This document shows, in pieces, positions 2 through 15,346 of a stretch of DNA of 35,693 nt (the stretch's first letter is position 1; each line of letters starts with the position of its first letter). This DNA is from Chloroflexota bacterium (GTDB taxonomy: Bacteria; Chloroflexota; Anaerolineae; JAAEKA01): assembly GCA_034717495.1 (NCBI GenBank), contig JAYELL010000063.1, positions 1 to 35,693 on the forward strand, read 5' to 3'. The notes under the pieces were generated by a model that saw only the letters and a program-made list of their open reading frames with translations, searched no databases and had not been told where the DNA came from. The position numbers and the translations under genes were made by a program.

Positions 2-259
2 GAAATAGGCACGCCCAAAGATTATACGGACGATCTTTACCTGGTCTATTTTGAGGTTGGCGAGTATCAGGAGAGAGCAAAGGCAATTCTGGAGAGTTAT
101 CTTGGCGAAGATCGAAAAGTAAGTATTCGAACACTTGCGCATGGGTATATCGTCGAAATCGCCTTGCAAAGCACACCGGATATTGTCAAAAGGCTTGTCG
201 ACGAAAATATCGCCGTTTATCAGGTCAACCGATTGGCAAAAAGTGACGGACGCTGGTAG
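2..259 (+). CDS. C-terminal part of a probable ABC-transporter ATP-binding protein
   Basis: An open frame enters from the left edge and ends at TAG 257-259, giving the last 85 residues of a protein. The visible part has no Walker motifs. Its end (DIVKRLVDENIAVYQVNRL) resembles the C-terminal accessory domain (DUF4162-like) found after the nucleotide-binding domain of ABC-2 type exporters, where a beta-alpha-beta unit ends in a 'valine-x-x-V' strand. This is family resemblance only. The usual final LEDxF motif is absent and the protein ends KSDGRW instead. If correct, the protein would be a cytoplasmic ATPase energising a membrane export pump encoded upstream, outside the window. Confidence 0.45.
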   Translation, partial: EIGTPKDYTDDLYLVYFEVGEYQERAKAILESYLGEDRKVSIRTLAHGYIVEIALQSTPDIVKRLVDENIAVYQVNRLAKSDGRW

Positions 260-310
260 ACACACATCTTGAACATGGAAGAGACTATCACTCAAATCGG
301 AAGGGGAAAT

Positions 311-2188
311 TTGAAGACAACCATCATATCATTCGCTGTTCTTGTTTTGCTGTTGGCGCTGGCTGCCTGCGACGCCCAGGTTCCGACGCCTGCGCCGGAA
401 CCCACTACAGAAATCTCAGAGGCCGGGGAGGGCAGCGCTCCATCCTCCGAGGACCTCTACGCCGTCACCCAATCGCCGTGCGACGTGCCCCCGGGCGGGG
501 ATGAAATCGAAGGGGAGACCATCATCTGCGGGACGGTCAGCGTGCCGGAGAATTACGACGACCCCGACGGCAATCGCATACCACTGTCATACGCTCTGCT
601 CAAGGCCAGCGGCGACTCGCCCGCGCCCGATCCGGTCATCTTCCTGCACGGCGGGCCGGGGTCCGGTGAACTGCTGACCCTGGCGACTTTCGTCGAAGAT
701 TTCGCCACCGTGCGTCAGGACCGGGATGTGCTTGTCTTTGATCAACGGGGCGCCGGTTTCTCGAACGCCCCGCTCGATTGCGCCATGGATTTGATTGAGC
801 GGGAAGAAGAGATCGCCGACGCTGTGGCCCAGGCCTCGCCCGAGGATGCTGACAAGCTGAGGCAGGCGAAAATTCTGGAAATATGCGCGCAAGCTGCACA
901 GGAGCGAGGCGTAGACCTCTCCCAGTACAACACCATCAACAACGCCCGTGACGTGCAATCCGTAGTCACCGCGCTGGGATACGAAGACTTCAACCTCTAC
1001 GGCCATTCGTATGGCACAAAACTGGCGCTTGAGACCATGCGGCAACAGCCGGCGGGGCTGCGCAGCGTAGTCGTTGATTCGGTGGCGCCGCCCGACATAG
1101 AGCTCTATGCACGCTCCCGTGAACCCGCGCTCGAGGCCGCCCAGGCGCTCTTCGCCGCTTGCGCCGCTGGCGATGCCTGCAACGCCGCCTATCCCGATCT
1201 GGAGGCGCGCTTCAACCTCTTGATGGCGCAGCTTGAGCAAGCACCCATTGTCGTGAATGAAGAACAATCCATCACGCCGGCGGAGGTGATTGCGCTTTTC
1301 AATTTGCGCAATAGCCGTTATAACGGACCCGGCATCTCTGCCCACCTTCCCCGCATGATCGCCGAGCTTGAGCAGGGCGTGACCGACACCTATGATGGGC
1401 TGATGGATGGTTCGCTCTTGCCGCCCTCGCCCTTCGATGACGAAGAGTTCGTCCTCGATGAGGAAGAGAGCCCGCCGGAGCTGACGCTTGCTGAAACCTT
1501 CAACTTTGCGGCAAATTCAACCGAATCTCTGCAGGCCGATCCAGAAGCCAAGCGCGTCTATTTTGCATTGCCGCAGCAGCCAGCGACCCAGGCGATCTTG
1601 CTCGATTTCATCGACCAATACATCCCCGCCGCCGACAGCGCCGCGCTTCTGGAAACCGCCCAGGCCATGAGCAACGACGATGTCGCCGAACTCTACACCT
1701 TGATCCGCAAATTCGCCGCATATCAGCCCAACCCGGTCATGGCGACGATCATCGTTCCCTTGCACCTCTTTGTCTGCAACGAATCCATCCCCTTCAACAC
1801 CATGGAGGGGGCCAAGGCGTATATCGAATCGGCGCCGATCCCGGCCATGACCCAGGGTGCGCTGGCCAACGCGGCCAACAGCATCGAGTTGTGCGACGGC
1901 ATGCCCACGGGAACGGTCGACGACTCCTTCCATGACCCTGTTGCCAGCGACGTCCCCACCCTGGTGATGGTCGGGCTGAACGACACCCAGACCGCGGCAA
2001 GTTGGGGGAGCGTGGCGCTGGAAACCCTCTCCAACGGAACGCTGGCGACCTTCCCGGAGAGCGGACACGGCGTCTACCAGTTTTCACAGTGCGCCAGAGA
2101 GATGGGCGCGGCCTTCTTCAACCAGCCGGACGCAGCGCTCGATACCGCCTGTATCGAGGAGTTGAAGCCGGAATTTGCGCTGCCGTAG
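311..2188 (+). CDS. TAP-like alpha/beta-hydrolase lipoprotein (peptidase S33 type)
   Basis: A secreted alpha/beta hydrolase of the tripeptidyl-aminopeptidase-like family (S33), which trims short peptides from the N-terminus outside the cell. I chose TTG 311 as start because AAGGGG lies 4-5 nt upstream; ATG 275 and TTG 269 are in frame but lack a ribosome site. From 311 the protein is 625 residues and begins with a lipoprotein signal ending LAAC (Cys20), so it is probably membrane-anchored. The oxyanion motif HGGPG (about 113-117), nucleophile elbow GHSYG (Ser233), Asp558 in GLNDT and His586 in SGHG give a complete triad. The C-terminal third fits the TAP C-terminal domain. The next gene is a truncated glycoside-hydrolase-like frame that overlaps its 3' end. 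Substrate unknown. Confidence 0.85.
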   Translation: MKTTIISFAVLVLLLALAACDAQVPTPAPEPTTEISEAGEGSAPSSEDLYAVTQSPCDVPPGGDEIEGETIICGTVSVPENYDDPDGNRIPLSYALLKASGDSPAPDPVIFLHGGPGSGELLTLATFVEDFATVRQDRDVLVFDQRGAGFSNAPLDCAMDLIEREEEIADAVAQASPEDADKLRQAKILEICAQAAQERGVDLSQYNTINNARDVQSVVTALGYEDFNLYGHSYGTKLALETMRQQPAGLRSVVVDSVAPPDIELYARSREPALEAAQALFAACAAGDACNAAYPDLEARFNLLMAQLEQAPIVVNEEQSITPAEVIALFNLRNSRYNGPGISAHLPRMIAELEQGVTDTYDGLMDGSLLPPSPFDDEEFVLDEEESPPELTLAETFNFAANSTESLQADPEAKRVYFALPQQPATQAILLDFIDQYIPAADSAALLETAQAMSNDDVAELYTLIRKFAAYQPNPVMATIIVPLHLFVCNESIPFNTMEGAKAYIESAPIPAMTQGALANAANSIELCDGMPTGTVDDSFHDPVASDVPTLVMVGLNDTQTAASWGSVALETLSNGTLATFPESGHGVYQFSQCAREMGAAFFNQPDAALDTACIEELKPEFALP

Positions 2189-3065
2189 AGGTATCTCCTC
2201 GATATTCCGGGGCGCAGACCAGCCCCGGCGCATACAACCCGGACCCAACTGGCTGGCCATCGCCAACATCTTCTATCCGACCCAGGACACAGCCCTCTCC
2301 CTGACTATCTCGGTCATCGACACCACCAGCGCGCGCCTGCCGGCAGACCTGGCCGGCAAGCCCTTCGATGACCCGGAAGTCATCCAGCGCTTCAACGGGC
2401 TGCTGGATTTTGTAGCTACCCAGACGCCTGACCTGACATTGGCCACCCTCTCCATCGGCAATGAAGTGGACGGCTACCTGAACGGCAAGCAGTGGGCGCA
2501 ATACCAGGAATTCTTCCGGGCCACATCGGCCCACGCCCGCCAACTCTGGCCCGATGTCCCCGTGGGCGCCAAAGCCATGTTTGATGGGCTGACCGGCGAC
2601 GCGCAGGAGCCGTTGATGGCCCTCAACCAGCACAGCGATGCGATCTTCGTCACCTACTACCCGCTCGACCGCGACTTCACCGTCAAAGAACCGGACATAG
2701 TGCTGGCTGACTTTGACGCCATCAGCCAACTCTATCCCGACCGTTCCATCTACTTCCTCGAACTGGGTTACCCATCGGGCGAGGACAACGACTCATCCCA
2801 GGCCATGCAGGCTGAATTCGTGCGTCAGACCTTCCAGGCGTGGGATGCCCACCAGGATCAGGTCAAATTGATCTCCTTCACATGGCTGACCGACATCGAT
2901 CCCGCCGCGGTGAAGGGGTATGAGCGCTATCATGGGATCTCAGGCAAGGGCTTTGCGTCCTATTTGGGCACATTGGGTCTGCGTACGTACAATGGTGAGG
3001 ACAAGGACGCGTTCCGGGCCTTGAACGACGAGACTAAACGACGAGGATGGACTAATGAACCATAG
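2175..3065 (+). pseudogene. 5'-truncated clan GH-A-like glycoside hydrolase
   Basis: From about 2244 this frame encodes the second half of a TIM-barrel glycosidase-like protein. Two Glu motifs of the clan GH-A kind are visible: IGNEVDGYL (Glu codon 2463-2465, possible acid/base) and YFLELGYPSG (Glu codon 2760-2762, possible nucleophile). The first barrel strands, any signal peptide and a credible start are missing. The only in-frame start near the 5' end, TTG 2175, lies inside the preceding hydrolase gene, and residues encoded by 2175-2243 look unlike protein. I infer a deletion that removed the 5' part of the gene. The stop (3063-3065) overlaps the ATG of the next gene at 3055. It is probably non-functional, though a short translated product by re-initiation cannot be excluded. 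Confidence 0.6.
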
Positions 3066-6000
3066 TAAACGACTGAAAATCGCAACTACCGTGACGGGGG
3101 TGGCAATCACACTTTTGTTCCTGTTCACCGCCTGCGCAGCTCCAGTTCCTGACCCGCCAGAAGCGACCAAAACGCCGGTGGCAACACCAAGCAAGGAAAC
3201 ATCTGCCGCGACGCCAGATTCAACAGCCAATGCGCCAACGCTGCTCGACCGCCCCTGCGATCTCTTCATCCCCGCGGGCGAGGTCGAAGGCGAGACCATC
3301 CAGTGCGGCTACGTGATCGTTCCCGCAGTTCTGGATCAGGCGGAGAGCCAGCCGGTCAAACTGGCCTATGTCATCCTAAAGGCCACCAGGGACAAACCGC
3401 TGGACGACCCCATCATTCACATCGCCGGCGGCCCGGGCATCGCCTCCACCAGCCGGGATGTCGTGTTGGAACTCGCCCGCCGCTATGCCTCCATGCGCGA
3501 GACGCGCGACATCATCCTCTACGATCAACGGGGCATGGGCAGAAGCCAGCCTTACTTCGATTGTTACCAGTTCCTGGACGATTCGACGGACTTCAGCGCG
3601 CTGGATGACGAGTCAAAACTGACCGCCGCCTGCCAGGAAGCCATGGACGCCCAGGGCTATCCGCCGGAAGCCTTCAGCACGGTCGTTTCCGCCGCCGATC
3701 TCAACGAGCTGATGGCGGCTCTGGGTTATCCCGAATACAATCTTTATGGCATCTCCTACGGCACGCGCCTACTTATGGCCCTCATGCACTACTTCCCGGA
3801 TCAGGCGCCGGTGCGCGCCATCGTCCTGGATTCGGTGGACACCCTGCCTGAAAACATCGGTACGGAACTGACTGCGGCCGGGCAACTGCTGCAACAGGAC
3901 ATGTTTGAATCTGTCTTTGCCGCCTGCGCCGAGGACGAAGCCTGCGCCACTGCCTATCCCGACCTGCGCGCCCAGTTCGATGCCCTGACCGAACAACTGG
4001 ACCGGACCCCCATCCAGCTTGACGAGAACACCAACGTGGATGGCGACACCATCTATCGCTACACCTTCCCCTACAACAGCGCATTCCAGAATATCCCCTA
4101 CCAGCCAAGGATGATTGCAGAGCTGAGCCAGGGCGTGACCACCACCCTGAGTATGATCGCCAACGGTGAAATCCCCGCGCCGGCCACCCGAACGGCCGCC
4201 TTGCCCCCGGAGCCGGAGGCGGTGGGGGATCTGCTGGACCTCTATTTGGAATGTCCCTCCCTGGAGTCAACGGAAGACGAGACAGGCAGCGAGATCGATC
4301 CGCTGGTGGGGTATTGGGATGCGGACGAAGGCGCCCTGGCGGCCCTTTTCACCAACGTCTGCCCGGAGGACATCGCCACCCAATTGACCGCCGCCGCCAG
4401 CGACACGCCCGGATTCTTCAACTATATCATCCAGCGCTTCGCCCCCGACCCGACGGTCGGCGTCAATCCCAACATCAACGGCAAACTCCTCTGCACCGAG
4501 CAATATCCCTTCCGGGAACCGTTCGGGGAGATGAAAGAAGAGATGGCGGTGGGTGGCATGCCCGCCTTCTTCATCGAAGAAACTATTGCCAACCTGACTC
4601 AGAATGTGGCCGGATGCGATGCCTGGCGGGACGCCATGACCGAGCCCACGCCCGACGAATATGGCTCCTACCCGACCTTGGTGCTCTCCGGTCAGTTCGA
4701 CAACCTGACGCCGCCGGCCTGGAGCGAAACCGCCGCCGCCCTGCTGCCTAATGCCCAACTGCTCACCATCCCCAACGCCTGGCACAGCATCATGGGCAAC
4801 AACGGCCCCTGTCCCACGGACATCACGCTTCAGTTTTTGGCGAATCCTGGCGAAGTTGTGGACGCCAGTTGTACGGAAGGGATGCAGGTGGTCTTTCTCC
4901 CACCAGCTGACGAAAAGACCGCTAGTTCCGATGAAATCACAGGAACCCCGGGCGCGCCCGCTATAGGCGATCCCTTATACCCGACCCTGGGCAATGGCGG
5001 CTATGATATCCAGCACTACGATATCGCCCTGGACGCCGACCCGGCCCGCAACGTCATCAGCGGCACGGTCACCATCGACGCCATCGCCACCCAGGATCTG
5101 AGCGCCTTCAACCTGGACCTCGCCGGCCTGACCGTGGACCAGGTGACGGTCGATTCCAACCAGGCCCCATTCAGCCGCGACGGCAACGAACTGACCATCA
5201 CCCCCGCACAGGCGCTGGCCAACGGAGCAGCGTTCAGTGCCCAGGTGCGCTACCACGGTGAGCCGGAGTTAATCGACGATCCCAGCGCGCCGATTGCGCT
5301 CGGCTGGCAAGCGCAGGACGGGGGCAGCTTTGTCGTTTCTGAACCATCCGGGGCCATGAACTGGTATCCCGGCAACAACCATCCCGCGGACAAGGCCACC
5401 TACACCTTCCGCATCACCGTCCCCGACACCTATGAAGTGGCGGCCAACGGAATCCTCAGCCAGACGTTGCCCGCTGATGGCCATGTGACCTACGTGTGGG
5501 CGGTGGATCAGCCCATGGCCAGCTATCTTGCCACGGTGCAGATCAACGATTACGACATGGTCGCTACCACCACCGGCAGCGGTGTGGCCATCCGCAACTA
5601 CTTCCTGAATGATACGCCTGCTGACGTCCGGACCGCTTTCGACGATACCGGGGCCATGCTGGACTACGTGGCCGATCTCATCGCTCCCTATCCCTTCGAC
5701 GCCTACGGCATGGTGCTGCTGCGGGAACCGACCCGTTGGGCCCTGGAAACCCAAACCCTCTCCACCTACGGCGAGGGCGGCGCATCCGATCCGACGACCG
5801 TTATGCACGAACTGGTCCACTCCTGGTTCGGCAACAGCGTTTCCCCGGCCACCTGGCAGGATGTCTGGCTGAATGAAGGTTTCGCCAAGTATTTCGAGAG
5901 TTTGTGGCTGGATCATATCGGTGAGGCGCCCATAGACGATAGCATGGATGAACTCTACCAGATCATTTCGGGTCAGCAGACTGGACCGCCAGCGCTACCC

Positions 6001-6249
6001 GCACAGACGGAGTTGTTCGGTTTGAGCACCTATTACCGGGGCGCTTACTCGCTCCACGCCCTACGCCGGACGGTTGGCGATGACATTTTCTTCGACATCT
6101 TACGTGAGTATTACCAACGCTACCAGGGTGGCAGCGCCAGCACCGCCGACTTCGTAGCCGTGGCCAGGGAACTGGGCGGGGAAGAGGCGGAGAGCGTTCT
6201 TCATGATTGGCTGTACGGCGAGCGCGTGCCCCAAGAGACCGGCGGCTAA
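3055..6249 (+). CDS. Fusion lipoprotein: TAP-like hydrolase plus M1 metallopeptidase
   Basis: A 1064-residue exported protein. A lipoprotein signal ends FTAC (Cys27), followed by a Pro/Thr-rich linker. Residues about 60-620 form a TAP-like alpha/beta hydrolase with AGGPG, GISYG (Ser234), Asp549 in GQFDN and His577 in AWHS. Residues about 640-1064 form a compact M1 aminopeptidase: a beta N-domain, WALETQT in the place of the usual GAMEN, zinc motif HELVH (His918, Glu919, His922), third ligand Glu941 in NEGFAKYFE (HExxH-x18-E spacing) and YYRGAY containing the likely catalytic Tyr. The large helical C-domain of full-length M1 enzymes is absent. Both active sites look intact, so a surface protein joining a serine and a zinc peptidase is likely. 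GAGGATGG precedes the ATG. Confidence 0.9.
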   Translation: MNHSKRLKIATTVTGVAITLLFLFTACAAPVPDPPEATKTPVATPSKETSAATPDSTANAPTLLDRPCDLFIPAGEVEGETIQCGYVIVPAVLDQAESQPVKLAYVILKATRDKPLDDPIIHIAGGPGIASTSRDVVLELARRYASMRETRDIILYDQRGMGRSQPYFDCYQFLDDSTDFSALDDESKLTAACQEAMDAQGYPPEAFSTVVSAADLNELMAALGYPEYNLYGISYGTRLLMALMHYFPDQAPVRAIVLDSVDTLPENIGTELTAAGQLLQQDMFESVFAACAEDEACATAYPDLRAQFDALTEQLDRTPIQLDENTNVDGDTIYRYTFPYNSAFQNIPYQPRMIAELSQGVTTTLSMIANGEIPAPATRTAALPPEPEAVGDLLDLYLECPSLESTEDETGSEIDPLVGYWDADEGALAALFTNVCPEDIATQLTAAASDTPGFFNYIIQRFAPDPTVGVNPNINGKLLCTEQYPFREPFGEMKEEMAVGGMPAFFIEETIANLTQNVAGCDAWRDAMTEPTPDEYGSYPTLVLSGQFDNLTPPAWSETAAALLPNAQLLTIPNAWHSIMGNNGPCPTDITLQFLANPGEVVDASCTEGMQVVFLPPADEKTASSDEITGTPGAPAIGDPLYPTLGNGGYDIQHYDIALDADPARNVISGTVTIDAIATQDLSAFNLDLAGLTVDQVTVDSNQAPFSRDGNELTITPAQALANGAAFSAQVRYHGEPELIDDPSAPIALGWQAQDGGSFVVSEPSGAMNWYPGNNHPADKATYTFRITVPDTYEVAANGILSQTLPADGHVTYVWAVDQPMASYLATVQINDYDMVATTTGSGVAIRNYFLNDTPADVRTAFDDTGAMLDYVADLIAPYPFDAYGMVLLREPTRWALETQTLSTYGEGGASDPTTVMHELVHSWFGNSVSPATWQDVWLNEGFAKYFESLWLDHIGEAPIDDSMDELYQIISGQQTGPPALPAQTELFGLSTYYRGAYSLHALRRTVGDDIFFDILREYYQRYQGGSASTADFVAVARELGGEEAESVLHDWLYGERVPQETGG

Positions 6250-7841: not shown

Positions 7842-8666
7842 GTGAGCAAAACACGAAGGCCCGTTAAGCGGCCGTCAGCCGAAACCTACATCTTCATCTC
7901 CCTGGCCACCTTCGGCCTGACGGTGGCTGCAACCCGCATATTCCTGCAACTGGCCGGGTTTCCACAGTTGGGCAACTCCATCCTGCACATCGCCCATGCG
8001 ATTTGGGGTGGTTTGCTCTTGTTTGCAGCCGTGTTAGCCACGCTGATAATGGCCAATCGTTGGGCGTTTACCCTGAGTGCCGTTCTTAGCGGAGTCGGCG
8101 TCGGGCTTTTCATCGATGAAGTGGGTAAATTCATCACCCAGAAGAACGACTACTTCTTCCCGCCGGCAGCACCCCTCATCTACTCCCTTTTCCTGTTGAT
8201 GGTGCTGTTGTTCCTGATGCTTCGCCGTTCTCGCCGGCCAGGCCCCCGCGCCAGCATGTACCGCGCCCTCTTGGGAATGCAGGAAGTGCTGGACAACAAC
8301 CGGGACTCCCAGGAACGAGATCGTTTGCTGGCCGAATTGACACACGGCCGTACCGCCCCAGAACCCCACATCGTATTTTTGGCCGAACAACTGACCGCCT
8401 ACCTGCAGGACGAGTCTATCCCGCTCGCCAGTTATCGCCCCGGGATTTGGGAGCGATTCAATCGGCAGGTGCGCGCCATTGGCGAGACGTTGGGACGCAA
8501 GAACCACCGACATCTCATTGTGGGAATAACGGCCATCGTGGGTATCAACGCGCTCATGATGGTTGCGCTGCTCGTATGGGCCTGGCTTTCGCCATCCCAG
8601 TCCAGGATTATCCTCTCTGGCTTGCTGCTGGCCGAGACAGAACTCACCACCCAGAATCTCACCTGA
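7842..8666 (+). CDS. Multi-pass membrane protein, unknown function; interrupted by in-frame TGA
   Basis: Starts at GTG 7842 and runs 274 codons to TGA 8664-8666. Hydrophobic segments at about residues 17-38, 45-68, 76-97, 105-125 and 225-247 suggest an integral membrane protein with a cytoplasmic basic segment (RRSRRPGPRA) and a soluble stretch between segments four and five. The conserved-looking GLFIDEVGKFIT lies after the third helix. The frame continues past the TGA without shift into another 77 codons containing two or three more hydrophobic segments (next entry). I infer that the intact gene spans 7842-8897 and that TGA replaced a sense codon such as TGG. Function unknown. Confidence 0.6.
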   Translation: MSKTRRPVKRPSAETYIFISLATFGLTVAATRIFLQLAGFPQLGNSILHIAHAIWGGLLLFAAVLATLIMANRWAFTLSAVLSGVGVGLFIDEVGKFITQKNDYFFPPAAPLIYSLFLLMVLLFLMLRRSRRPGPRASMYRALLGMQEVLDNNRDSQERDRLLAELTHGRTAPEPHIVFLAEQLTAYLQDESIPLASYRPGIWERFNRQVRAIGETLGRKNHRHLIVGITAIVGINALMMVALLVWAWLSPSQSRIILSGLLLAETELTTQNLT

Positions 8667-11377: not shown

Positions 11378-13714
11378 TTAACCACTACCATTTCCCTTCC
11401 CCATCGCTTCCCACACCTTCTCACTGGTAATCGGCATGGAATCGATCTCGATCCCCAGCGCATCCCGCACAGCGTTGGCGATCGCGGGCGCGGTTGGCAC
11501 CATGGCATGCTCGCCGATGCCGCGCGCCCCAAAGGGCCCGTCGTCCTGGGGCACCTCCACGATGATCGTTTCAATATCGGATGGCGCATCGATGGCCGTG
11601 GCGATTCGATAGTCGGTGAAGTTGGGGTTCAATGGCTTGCCGTCGGCCATGATGATCTGTTCCAGCAGAGCAGTACTCATGCCCTGCACAGCGCCACCCT
11701 CCATCTGCGTGCGAACCATGTCCGGGTTGATAGCCTTGCCCACGTCGAAGGCCGCGCTGATGCGCACCACTTCCAGTTGACCCGTCTCCTCGTCCACCTC
11801 CACCTCGACCCCTTGGGCGCCGGTGGTGAAGTGGACCACAGCCCTCTTGCCCTGGCCGGTGTCAGGATCCAATGGGGTGACGTAGGTGGGCATGAAGCGT
11901 CCCTTGCCCAACACCGGCCCGCCGATCCAGGTGCCATCCGGTTTTTGCATGCCATACACCACGATGTCCTTGAGCGGAATCGATTCCTCAGTAGCATAGC
12001 TGACCACGTTGCCGTCGATGATGTCCATGTCGGCGAGATTCTCTCCCCACACCTCGGCGACCATGCTGATGATCTGGGTCCTGGCCTCGTCGGCAGCCCG
12101 CAGAATAGCATTGCCCATGCTCCAGGTAATGCGGCTGGCCACCGTTTGCCACTCATAGGGTGAATAATCGGTATCCACCGTGTTCACCCGCACATCCTCG
12201 ATGGGTACACCCAGCCCTTCGGCGGCCAGCTGTGCCGCGATGGTCAGCGTACCCTGACCCATGTCGACACCACCTACATTGACCAGGCAGGTACCATCCT
12301 CGTTGAAGCGAATCGTGGCTGCTGACCCGGGATTGGGCGGCATGGCAGGCGCTTTCCACATGGCGGCAATGCCCTTACCGCGCCGCTTGTGAGGTGCCGA
12401 GGGCCGGGCCGGCTTACCCCATTCGATAGCCTCGGCCGCCTTGCTGATGCACTGACTGAGCCCGGTGGCATGCATGATCATGCCCGTTACCGTCTCATCC
12501 CCCTCCTTCAGGCAGTTCAACAGGCGTACTTCCACCGGGTCCAACTCAAGTTGTGTCGCCATGCGATCGATGTGTTGTTCGATGGCCCAGTGGATCTCCG
12601 GCATGCCGAAACCGCGCATGGCGCCGCCGATCGGATGATTGGTATAGACGCAATAGGAGTCGGCGTGCACGTTGGGCACCAGGTAAGGACCGGTGGAGCT
12701 GTAGCCGGCCGCACGGGTGATATTGACGCCATACTCGGTATAGGCGCCGCCGTCCCAGTAATAGGTGTTCTGCATGGCAGTGATCCGCCCATCGTCGGTC
12801 ATGCCCATCCTGATATAGGCCACCAGACCCTGGCGCACAAAGGTCGTGTAAAACTCCTCTGCCCGGGACATCACCAGTTTGACCGGGCGGCCCCTGGCCT
12901 GCATCGCCATGATCACACAGGCGCCCTCCATGCTGACCCCCGCCTTGGCGCCGAAGCCGCCCCCCACGTAAGGGGTGATCACCCGCAGTTTGCTGTGGCC
13001 GATGCCCAGGCTCTTGGCTATCAGGTTGCGCTGAGCAAAAGGAGACTGGCTACTGCTCCAGAGGGTGATCTTTCCATTGCCGTCTATCTGGGCAACGGCG
13101 CCGTGAGTCTCCAGGGGCACATGCTGCACGTGAGGCACCCGATAGCTATGCTCGTAGATATGGTCGGCTTCCTGCCAACCAGCTTCCATGTCCCCCTTGC
13201 GCACTTTGAACCAGTTGCTGATGTTGGTGCCCGGCTGGCGGAAGATGAAAGGAGCACACTGGTAGTCTCCCAGGCCCGGATGGATCAACGGCGCCTCAGC
13301 GCTGGCTCCAAACTCCGGATCGAAGACGCCCGGTAGCTCCTCGTAGGTCACCTCAATCAAGCTGACCGCTTTTTCGGCCAGTTCGGGCGTGTCGGCAGCC
13401 ACGCCGGCCACCGGTTCACCGACGAAGCGAACCCGGTCCACAGCGAAGGTCGGACGATCGGACAGATAGAGGCCGGTCAGACCGGGAAAATCCTGTCCGG
13501 TCACCACTACCCGCACGCCAGGCAGCGCCCTGGCCTTGCTGGTATCGATACCCGTGATGAAGCCGTGCGCGATGGGACTGCGCTTCAGCCGGCCATGCAA
13601 CAGGTTGGAACCAAACTGCATGTCGTCCACATACTGGGCGGTGCCGGTCACCTTCGCCTTGCTTTCCACCCTGGGAAACGATTGACCGACAATGGTTGTT
13701 TTTTTGATCGCCAC
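11378..13714 (-). CDS. Molybdenum hydroxylase large subunit (xanthine/aldehyde dehydrogenase family)
   Basis: The molybdopterin-binding catalytic subunit of a three-part hydroxylase that oxidises a carbon atom using water. GTG 13714 is the best start because AAAGGAG lies 7 nt upstream, giving 778 residues; a longer frame to 13780 runs into intergenic repeat. Visible features: the a/b hammerhead domain (TGTAQYVDDM), the cofactor-binding loops YVGGGFGAKAG and GGAMRGFGMPE, and the active-site Glu in ARGIGEHAMVPTAPA near the end. The CO-dehydrogenase signature with AYxCSFR is absent (AMRGFG instead), so CO is unlikely to be the substrate. It is last in an FAD / FeS / Mo operon. Purine, aldehyde or N-heterocycle are all possible substrates. 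Confidence 0.9.
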   Translation of the reverse strand: MAIKKTTIVGQSFPRVESKAKVTGTAQYVDDMQFGSNLLHGRLKRSPIAHGFITGIDTSKARALPGVRVVVTGQDFPGLTGLYLSDRPTFAVDRVRFVGEPVAGVAADTPELAEKAVSLIEVTYEELPGVFDPEFGASAEAPLIHPGLGDYQCAPFIFRQPGTNISNWFKVRKGDMEAGWQEADHIYEHSYRVPHVQHVPLETHGAVAQIDGNGKITLWSSSQSPFAQRNLIAKSLGIGHSKLRVITPYVGGGFGAKAGVSMEGACVIMAMQARGRPVKLVMSRAEEFYTTFVRQGLVAYIRMGMTDDGRITAMQNTYYWDGGAYTEYGVNITRAAGYSSTGPYLVPNVHADSYCVYTNHPIGGAMRGFGMPEIHWAIEQHIDRMATQLELDPVEVRLLNCLKEGDETVTGMIMHATGLSQCISKAAEAIEWGKPARPSAPHKRRGKGIAAMWKAPAMPPNPGSAATIRFNEDGTCLVNVGGVDMGQGTLTIAAQLAAEGLGVPIEDVRVNTVDTDYSPYEWQTVASRITWSMGNAILRAADEARTQIISMVAEVWGENLADMDIIDGNVVSYATEESIPLKDIVVYGMQKPDGTWIGGPVLGKGRFMPTYVTPLDPDTGQGKRAVVHFTTGAQGVEVEVDEETGQLEVVRISAAFDVGKAINPDMVRTQMEGGAVQGMSTALLEQIIMADGKPLNPNFTDYRIATAIDAPSDIETIIVEVPQDDGPFGARGIGEHAMVPTAPAIANAVRDALGIEIDSMPITSEKVWEAMGKGNGSG

Positions 13715-13811
13715 ACTACTCTCCTTTACCAATTGTCGATTGTCGACGGCCAGATCAGCAGGCTGGCCCCTCATTGACAATTGACCATTGGCTATTGACC
13801 GTTGACCATTA
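13715..13811. repeat. Intergenic CAATTGACCATTGGC-type repeat within the hydroxylase operon
   Basis: The gap between the FeS and Mo subunit genes holds near-repeats of TTGACCATT and CAATTGTC words (13730-13811). The same kind of string (ATTGGCAATTGACTATTAG) occurs at about 24683-24701. The last codons of the FeS-subunit gene lie inside this element. Confidence 0.5.
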
Positions 13812-14268
13812 GTCTGCCTGCCTCCCGCACCGCGTCCACGATCCGGGTATATCCGGTACAGCGACAGAGATTGCCCACCAACCCTTCCCGGATCTCCCGG
13901 TCACTGGGCGTTGGTGTGCGCTGCAATAGCGCGTGGGCTGCCATCAAAACACCCGGGGTGCAGAAACCACACTGCGTGCCGCCCAGATCGATCATCGCCT
14001 GTTGCACCGGCGCCAGCTTCTCGCCCAGGGCCAGACCCTCCACCGTGGTGATCTCATGGCCATCGGCTTCGACGCCCAGCACCAGGCAGGAGTTCACCGG
14101 CTCGCCGTCGAAGAGCACTGTGCAAGCTCCACACTCCCCTTCCGAGCAACCGTTTTTTGTGCCTGTCAGCACCAACTGCTCCCGCAACACACGCAGCAAC
14201 GTGTGGTGCGACTCCACCACGATCGCATAGGCTTCGCCGTTGACTGAAAAATCGATTTCGTTTTTCAT
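13792..14268 (-). CDS. Molybdenum hydroxylase 2Fe-2S subunit
   Basis: The small iron-sulfur subunit that carries electrons from the Mo site to FAD. From ATG 14268 it is 158 residues; GGAG sits 5 nt upstream, while the GTG at 14274 overlaps that site. The N-terminal plant-ferredoxin domain has CSEGECGACTVLFDGEPVNS plus a following Cys, and the C-terminal helical domain has CGFCTPG and CRCTGY, supplying all eight cluster cysteines. The length fits the family. It lies between the FAD and Mo subunit genes. The final residues MVNGQ come from a dispersed intergenic repeat. Confidence 0.93.
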   Translation of the reverse strand: MKNEIDFSVNGEAYAIVVESHHTLLRVLREQLVLTGTKNGCSEGECGACTVLFDGEPVNSCLVLGVEADGHEITTVEGLALGEKLAPVQQAMIDLGGTQCGFCTPGVLMAAHALLQRTPTPSDREIREGLVGNLCRCTGYTRIVDAVREAGRLMVNGQ

Positions 14269-14274
14269 TCTCAC

Positions 14275-14476
14275 TCCGTTCGGATTATGTGAAATGTCAT
14301 CATGTCACCATGCGCCCTTCAGAAGATGGTGTTCGGTAATCGGAAATCGGTGATCCGATGGGATCGACGCGGTTCAGGATCGGGTTACCGATTACCGGTA
14401 ACGGATTACCCGGATTGCGCCTCCGACCCTCGTGGCATGGTGAAACGAAGTCCCGGAGGGCGGAGCCCGTAGTGGA
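14275..14476. repeat. Intergenic repeats between FAD and FeS subunit genes
   Basis: There is no gene here. 14288-14312 has the octamer-phased ATGTCATCATGTCACCATG type; 14333-14412 has alternating CGGTAATCGGAAATCGG / GGATTACC words that can fold back on each other (ATTACCGGTAACGG core); 14446-14475 has CGAAGTCCCGGAGGG followed by CGGAGCCCGTAGTGGATTA, shared in part with 8989. Confidence 0.5.
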
Positions 14477-15346
14477 TTATGACATCGTGACATTCAGTAT
14501 CTTCTCGACACTACGCCGCGTCAACACCCGAACCATATCCCGGCGATAAACCGCGCTCGCGCGGATGTCGTCGATTGGTTTCGAAGCTTCTGCTGCCGCC
14601 CGGGCCGCCGCTGCCACACCCTCGGATGAGCTATCGCGGGCCAGCAGGTTCTCCGCCTCCGTGGCGCGAAGGGGCGTGGGGGCAACCGAACCTAGCGTTA
14701 TCCGCCATGAAGCCCCGGAGTTGGCATCGCCGTCGGGCCAGCCCAGGACAGCAACGTTCATCACTGAGATGTCGCCGACTGTCGTGCGGCCCAGCTTGTG
14801 CCAGCATCCAACGGCGCCCGTCGGAGGAGGAGGCAAAAGGATCGCCGTTAATAATTCGCCTGCCTGCAATGCTGTCGCACCCGGGCCCAGAAAAAACGCC
14901 TCCAGGGGCATTTCACGAGTTCCTGCCGGCCCGAAAAGCTCGATACTGGCGCCGTAACAGATAAGGGCAGGCGCGCTGTCCGCGGCCGGCGATCCGTTGC
15001 AGAGATTGCCGCCCATCGTGGCGCGGTTGCGCAACTGGTAGGAGGCCACCGAGCGGCAGGCGTCTGCCAGCAGGGGATAGCGCTCTACCACCAGGGGATC
15101 TACCACCACCTGGTTCATGGTCGCCGCCGCCCCGATACGCAGGCCCCCACTGCCGCCAGATGCTATCTCGCGAAAGCCGGGAATCTTTTTGACATCGATC
15201 AAAACAGCCGGAGCCAGGAATCCCCGTTCGATCCGGATCAACAGGTCGGTTGCCCCGGCCACTATCTTCGCCTTGCCATTGTATTGGATCAAAAGCCGGC
15301 TGGCCTCTTCGATCGATTGAGCCTGGTAATAATCGAAAGGTTGCAA
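14477..15346 (-). CDS. Molybdenum hydroxylase FAD-binding subunit
   Basis: 289 residues, the medium subunit that passes electrons from the iron-sulfur subunit to an external acceptor. FAD-binding motifs of the family are clear: AGATDLL and TMGGNLCNGSPAADS. The C-terminal CO-dehydrogenase flavoprotein domain follows (LGSVAPTPLRA). It starts at TTG 15346 with a strong AGGAGG 7 nt upstream and is first in the operon, followed by the FeS and Mo subunits. The last residues (NVTMS) are encoded by an ATGTCA-type repeat. No molybdenum-cofactor maturation gene lies nearby in the window. Confidence 0.92.
   Translation of the reverse strand: MQPFDYYQAQSIEEASRLLIQYNGKAKIVAGATDLLIRIERGFLAPAVLIDVKKIPGFREIASGGSGGLRIGAAATMNQVVVDPLVVERYPLLADACRSVASYQLRNRATMGGNLCNGSPAADSAPALICYGASIELFGPAGTREMPLEAFFLGPGATALQAGELLTAILLPPPPTGAVGCWHKLGRTTVGDISVMNVAVLGWPDGDANSGASWRITLGSVAPTPLRATEAENLLARDSSSEGVAAAARAAAEASKPIDDIRASAVYRRDMVRVLTRRSVEKILNVTMS

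Follow-up and report, generated by a model that had tools for sequence, protein, structure and literature searches.

A predicted Chloroflexota lipoprotein that joins a TAP-like serine hydrolase to an M1 peptidase

Gene and domain architecture

The stretch of DNA analysed here (the window) comprises 35,693 nt of a Chloroflexota genome (GenBank GCA_034717495.1, contig JAYELL010000063.1), and at 3055-6249 of its forward strand a single ATG-started frame encodes 1064 residues without an internal stop. The encoded protein consists of a predicted lipoprotein signal, a TAP-like serine hydrolase (TAP half) and a zinc peptidase of family M1 (M1 half). A first-pass annotation, made from the letters alone, had described one 1064-residue frame with a lipobox, a complete Ser/Asp/His triad in its first half and HELVH-x18-E in its second, as well as a stand-alone TAP-like lipoprotein just upstream, and all of these elements were recovered in our analysis. 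The features are listed below in window coordinates, with the two preceding genes at the end.

3055..6249, +, fusion lipoprotein of 1064 residues, TAP-like hydrolase plus two-domain M1 peptidase, as predicted from sequence, Pfam and an intact ortholog
3043..3047, +, likely Shine-Dalgarno sequence GAGGA, 7 nt 5' of the fusion ATG (read from sequence)
3055..3135, +, predicted lipoprotein signal peptide, lipobox LFTA-C27 (sequence; LALAAC in the ortholog)
3136..3240, +, low-complexity tether 3' of the lipidated Cys, residues 28-62, with low predicted local distance difference test (pLDDT) scores (sequence comparison, structure model)
3241..4884, +, TAP-like alpha/beta-hydrolase domain, residues 63-610, with ten invariant Cys (Pfam, alignment, Hip1-like fold with Z 30)
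3754..3756, +, nucleophile Ser234 in GISYGT, identical in 17/17 TAP relatives
4699..4701, +, Asp549 of the triad, identical in 17/17 TAP relatives
4783..4785, +, His577 of the triad, identical in 17/17 TAP relatives
4885..4980, +, interdomain linker, residues 611-642, poorly conserved, residues 611-633 with pLDDT <50 (conservation, structure model)
4981..5544, +, M1 N-terminal beta domain, PF17900 (Pfam)
5545..6231, +, M1 catalytic domain, PF01433, with no C-terminal domain after it (Pfam, fold comparison)
5746..5748, +, Glu898 in ALETQ, equivalent in position to the Glu of GAMEN, which binds the N-terminus of the substrate (M1dr comparison, M1 alignment)
5806..5820, +, HELVH zinc motif, residues 918-922 (sequence, alignment)
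5875..5877, +, Glu941, third zinc ligand (sequence, alignment)
6031..6033, +, Tyr993, catalytic Tyr position, kept in 8/8 M1 relatives
269..2188, +, stand-alone TAP-like lipoprotein, a distant paralog (Pfam, sequence comparison, tree test)
2175..3065, +, open reading frame (ORF) without an ATG near its start and without a domain match, between the TAP gene and the fusion (Pfam, sequence)

The lipobox L-F-T-A-C27 is preceded by an n-region containing K/R and matches the PROSITE-type pattern, Phe at -3 being less usual. On this lipobox and Cys pattern, which reads LALAA-C in the ortholog, the product is predicted to be a bacterial lipoprotein. Four Pfam matches, all exceeding the curated cut-offs, cover the chain: Abhydrolase_1 (119-298, 7e-18) and Abhydrolase_4/TAP-like (515-599, 3e-11) in the TAP half, and Peptidase_M1_N (653-825, 2e-12) and Peptidase_M1 (865-1052, 4e-25) in the M1 half. 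Structure prediction, which the first-pass annotation had proposed for the linker, gave a full-length model with a predicted template modelling score (pTM) of 0.52, in which most of the M1 half has pLDDT >90 and residues 611-633 are disordered; the model therefore depicts two enzymes joined by a flexible tether, with their relative pose unpredicted.

Active sites and closest relatives

The zinc site of the M1 half is formed by His918, His922 and Glu941, with Glu919 as general base, and its HEXXH-x18-E spacing is kept in all eight stand-alone relatives. The exopeptidase motif reads WALETQT, in which the Glu of GXMEN is retained (E898, 8/8) and the Met and Asn are not. The best solved relative by sequence is M1dr of Deinococcus radiodurans (3e-68; 32-33% identity; PDB 6A8Z, 6IFF, 6IFG and 6KOY), which shares the HEXXH-x18-E spacing, likewise has an ALET motif instead of GAMEN, and has a catalytic Tyr with which the invariant Y993 aligns. 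The fold of M1dr matches residues 634-1064 with Z 54 and a root-mean-square deviation (rmsd) of 1.7 over 427 residues. Both proteins have an N-terminal beta domain and a catalytic domain only, and the chain of the window protein stops at 1064, directly past the catalytic domain, which places the M1 half in the two-domain M1 subgroup of the M1dr type. M1dr is a single enzyme of 474 residues, whereas the M1 half is the C-terminal part of a 1064-residue chain and lies behind a serine hydrolase.

In the TAP half, PF00561 and PF08386 were both found above cut-off and in order, as in 25/25 aligned relatives. Ten Cys are invariant across the aligned relatives (68, 84, 170, 193, 291, 297, 480, 521, 586 and 606), a pattern reminiscent of Hip1, for which five disulfides have been predicted (PMC4022732). 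Because the M1 half fills the whole-chain fold search, a model of the TAP half was made and searched separately. The separate model (pLDDT 81) is closest among solved folds to Hip1 (Z about 30, rmsd 5.3 over 417 residues) and TnmK1 (Z 29), and a profile built from 25 relatives matches Hip1 along its whole length at 1e-42. Like Hip1/CaeA (Rv2224c, Mycobacterium tuberculosis) and TPP B/C (SlpD/SlpE) of S. lividans, the TAP half is of the S33 TAP-like type, a Cys-rich serine hydrolase assigned to the cell envelope with the triad order Ser-Asp-His. It differs from this group in sequence (about 20% identity), in length (about 560 versus 470 residues), in an extra helical lid, and in bearing a second enzyme at its C-terminus.

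Reality of the fusion

A search of the class (396 genomes) led to identification of a second fusion in genome G276 (DUEF01000205.1, 'Caldilineae bacterium isolate G439'), a metagenome-assembled genome (MAG) of another family in the same class as the window genome. Its uninterrupted ORF of 1065 residues runs over both halves and starts with the lipobox LALAAC. The two fusions are 75% identical, with the same junction, equal linker length and all catalytic residues kept; they are least conserved in the signal with the lipid tether, in the linker and in a short part of the lid. Pairwise ratios of nonsynonymous to synonymous substitution rates (dN/dS; Nei-Gojobori, own script) of 0.16 (TAP half) and 0.22 (M1 half) indicate purifying selection on both.

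An assembly error or a lost stop that joined two adjacent genes is suggested by the unfused M1 proteins found in relatives at up to 64% identity. The first-pass annotation had pointed to separate adjacent genes in all relatives as the sign of a stop lost near residue 630. The relatives instead include G276, in which both halves lie in one frame at the same junction with no frameshift or stop. This intact, 75%-identical fusion and the low dN/dS in both halves make an artefact extremely improbable and, as judged from these sequences, exclude it in practice. In addition, TAP and M1 genes are nonadjacent in relatives, so a lost stop would have nothing to join.

The linker bears on another explanation, in which the precursor is cut there after export, so that the TAP enzyme stays on its lipid anchor and the M1 enzyme is set free; the fusion would then be an export arrangement rather than a bifunctional enzyme. 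The 32 residues of the linker are of low confidence and poorly conserved, and M1 relatives elsewhere are anchored or secreted alone, as such a scheme would allow. No recognisable conserved cleavage site was found in the linker, however, and its length is equal in the two orthologs, and we therefore consider cleavage improbable, though less so than an artefact.

Origin and distribution of the fusion

In every other genome examined, the closest M1 relatives (up to 64% identity) stand alone, are about 460-600 residues long and mostly have a lipobox of their own. For alignment a balanced 27-row set was used, and a 54-row mixed set, which had placed TAP rows on the M1 half, was discarded. In the M1 tree the two fused M1s pair (Shimodaira-Hasegawa-like approximate likelihood ratio test, SH-aLRT, 98) and are sister to an unfused M1 lipoprotein of genome G294 (99), deep inside the stand-alone M1s. 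The G294 gene is broken across the ends of two contigs. A signal peptide and lipobox of its own are present on the 5' piece, and after the 3' piece comes a homolog (45%) of the window gene at 7842-8666, an arrangement that partial synteny of the locus would produce. Because stand-alone M1 lipoproteins surround the fused pair in the tree, the unfused lipoprotein is ancestral and the fusion derived. The coding sequence of a TAP lipoprotein would thus have joined a stand-alone M1 lipoprotein gene and displaced the signal peptide and anchor of the latter.

The fusion is rare. Only the window genome and G276 carry it among about 750 Chloroflexota genomes, with no third case in these or in 294 Planctomycetota genomes (0), a sampling that is broad and not exhaustive. 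No plasmid sequence covers 80% of the fusion query at one place, and no fusion was found in viral contigs. A scan of genome contigs with two short patterns only returned the G276 record and stand-alone M1s. Both enzymes are of known kinds, and no description of their combination was found in a literature search that missed most subscription papers.

The RNA polymerase subunit RpoB of the two carriers is only 66% identical, yet their fusions are 75% and their neighbouring TAP proteins 85-88% identical. In the neighbouring TAP gene, DNA identity is 87% between window 241-2188 and L088 532-2500, with the match ending near the gene boundaries. Horizontal transfer, probably recent in the case of the TAP gene, is the likeliest explanation, on these sequence comparisons, of the excess identity over rpoB. 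Mis-binning of one MAG may account for it instead, as the G276 contigs are only 4.1 and 10 kb long.

Upstream genes

The first-pass annotation had read the stand-alone TAP gene at 269-2188 as a sign of duplication and fusion. The two TAP genes are adjacent in the window and their products are 32% identical over the full length, and in G276 the fusion and the TAP gene have a similar signal-peptide stretch, which could speak for a tandem duplication that gave rise to the TAP half. The path between the neighbour and the fused TAPs nevertheless exceeds 3 substitutions per site, and in the tree the neighbour falls among unfused TAPs from families f45 and f35 (support 100). A tree that forced the neighbour to pair with the fused TAPs as closest kin, as after a recent event, was rejected by the approximately unbiased (AU) test (p = 4.8e-5). 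The duplication claim is accordingly dropped as very improbable, the nearest kin of the neighbour lying elsewhere, and the common origin of the two genes is an ancient one within the TAP family.

The signal-peptide DNA of the G276 fusion (L037 3549-3603) is 87% identical to that of the separate TAP gene (window 354-408), and the signal of the window fusion is unrelated. Signal sequences were apparently swapped between TAP paralogs.

The ORF at 2175-3065 begins within the end of the TAP gene, and its own end and the fusion start codon overlap by 11 nt. Family and domain searches with this ORF returned no match; it looks like a truncated TIM-barrel protein of the sugar-hydrolase type.

Proposed function

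We propose, with a probability of roughly 0.6, that this is a selected gene fusion encoding a membrane-anchored extracytoplasmic bifunctional peptidase, in which the TAP half cuts off short peptides and the M1 half trims the products, feeding amino acid uptake. The lipid-anchored N-terminal half would most likely remove short peptides, tripeptide-sized by family precedent, from oligopeptide N-termini; the two-domain M1 half, on its flexible linker, would then take single N-terminal residues off these products, and the amino acids released would feed uptake. Such a hand-over from TAP to M1 is chemically sensible, sequential processing can reasonably be inferred, and having both enzymes on one chain probably makes extracellular peptide breakdown faster. 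In Thermoplasma the factors F1 (S33) and F3 (M1) act downstream of tricorn and are thought to share a peptide stream. The fusion can be likened to them in function, as an S33-fold peptidase and an M1 aminopeptidase working on the same peptides, and both factors are among the fold matches (F1, 1mt3, for the TAP half; F3, 1z1w, for the M1 half). F1 and F3 are, however, separate cytosolic proteins and F1 is of a different S33 subtype, whereas the window protein is one predicted exported chain. In a cultured member of the Chloroflexota, which carries 18 genes of the S33 family and an M01 lipoprotein, experiments point to proteolytic metabolism (PMC8129789).

Several observations weigh against this proposal. 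That both families act at N-termini, as first annotated, holds for M1 and is less certain for TAP, since the TAP kin Hip1 also shows esterase activity and cleaves GroEL2 (PMC4022732) and TnmK1, about equally close in fold, is described solely as a 'secreted hydrolase'. The tripeptidyl step is thus a guess, because the TAP family also holds esterases, endopeptidase-like enzymes and hydrolases of other substrates. The pTM of 0.52 and the disordered linker give no sign of a channel or a fixed arrangement of the active sites. Finally, the genomic association of the two activities is weak, because TAP and M1 genes lie apart in the other genomes examined except G358, whose TAP is part of a fusion with a beta-lactamase-like domain.

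Esterases and other hydrolases are also found among TAP-fold enzymes, and the main rival explanation is therefore that the two enzymes have only a secretion signal and a lipid anchor in common and that each works by itself on a substrate of its own, with the TAP half perhaps an esterase or a hydrolase of other compounds; the fusion would then do no more than save an anchor and fix a 1:1 ratio. The disordered, fast-evolving linker agrees with this, as do the esterase activity of Hip1 and the TnmK1 kinship, and a fusion of TAP to a beta-lactamase-like domain in the same genome indicates that TAP joins unrelated hydrolases. On the other hand, the partners found (M1 and S12/beta-lactamase-like) are plausibly peptide-related, the S12/beta-lactamase-like fold including D-aminopeptidases and DD-peptidases, and an M1dr-type enzyme binds a tripeptide, the expected TAP product. 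We regard independent action as a serious but clearly less probable explanation than the bifunctional peptidase.

Other multi-hydrolase lipoproteins

Two further TAP fusions were found in the same class. The window genome encodes on contig C79 (L065:2916-6845, +) a lipoprotein of 1310 residues with a TAP followed by a serine beta-lactamase-like (PF00144) domain. On contig C409 of G358 (L093:1-1893, -) a fusion in reverse order, beta-lactamase-like then TAP, lies at the contig end, and the gene immediately upstream of it (2067-4007, -) encodes an unfused two-domain M1 lipoprotein, so that the three modules stand side by side. As in the TAP-M1 protein, a TAP lipoprotein is here joined to a second exported hydrolase, which is an S12/beta-lactamase-like serine hydrolase and not M1. 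On the basis of these fusions in the window genome and G358, TAP lipoproteins of this class seem to have fused repeatedly with other exported hydrolases.

A more specific version of our proposal is tentative and rather doubtful as a whole: the anchored S33 enzyme would be a tripeptidyl-peptidase that passes tripeptides to the tethered M1, and the protein would be one instance of an undescribed habit of the class, that of TAP-based multi-hydrolase lipoproteins (TAP-M1, TAP-S12 and S12-TAP) beside M1-M1 tandems. The recurrent pattern, more than the single protein, may merit follow-up. Successive exopeptidases are usually separate proteins, and the fusion of a serine-type and a zinc-type enzyme on one anchor offers a clean test of whether tethering gives a speed-up. 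The fusion also illustrates how domain shuffling remodels the envelope enzymes of proteolytic Chloroflexota, with the products apparently handed on from one distant family to another.

Other long ORFs with M1 or TAP regions were also recorded. Contig C6 of G041 (L070 3924-8888, +, and 8960-12556, +) has two adjacent ORFs of 1655 and 1199 residues with two M1-like regions each, which are apparent M1-M1 tandem fusions. A TAP ORF of about 1200 residues in G227 (L091:2962-6567, -) has two Gmad2 immunoglobulin-like domains behind the TAP domain, and TAP ORFs of similar length occur in G207, G257 and G347. Elsewhere in the window, a molybdenum hydroxylase set at 11378-15346 (-) comprises a large subunit (MoCoBD), a [2Fe-2S] subunit and an FAD subunit.

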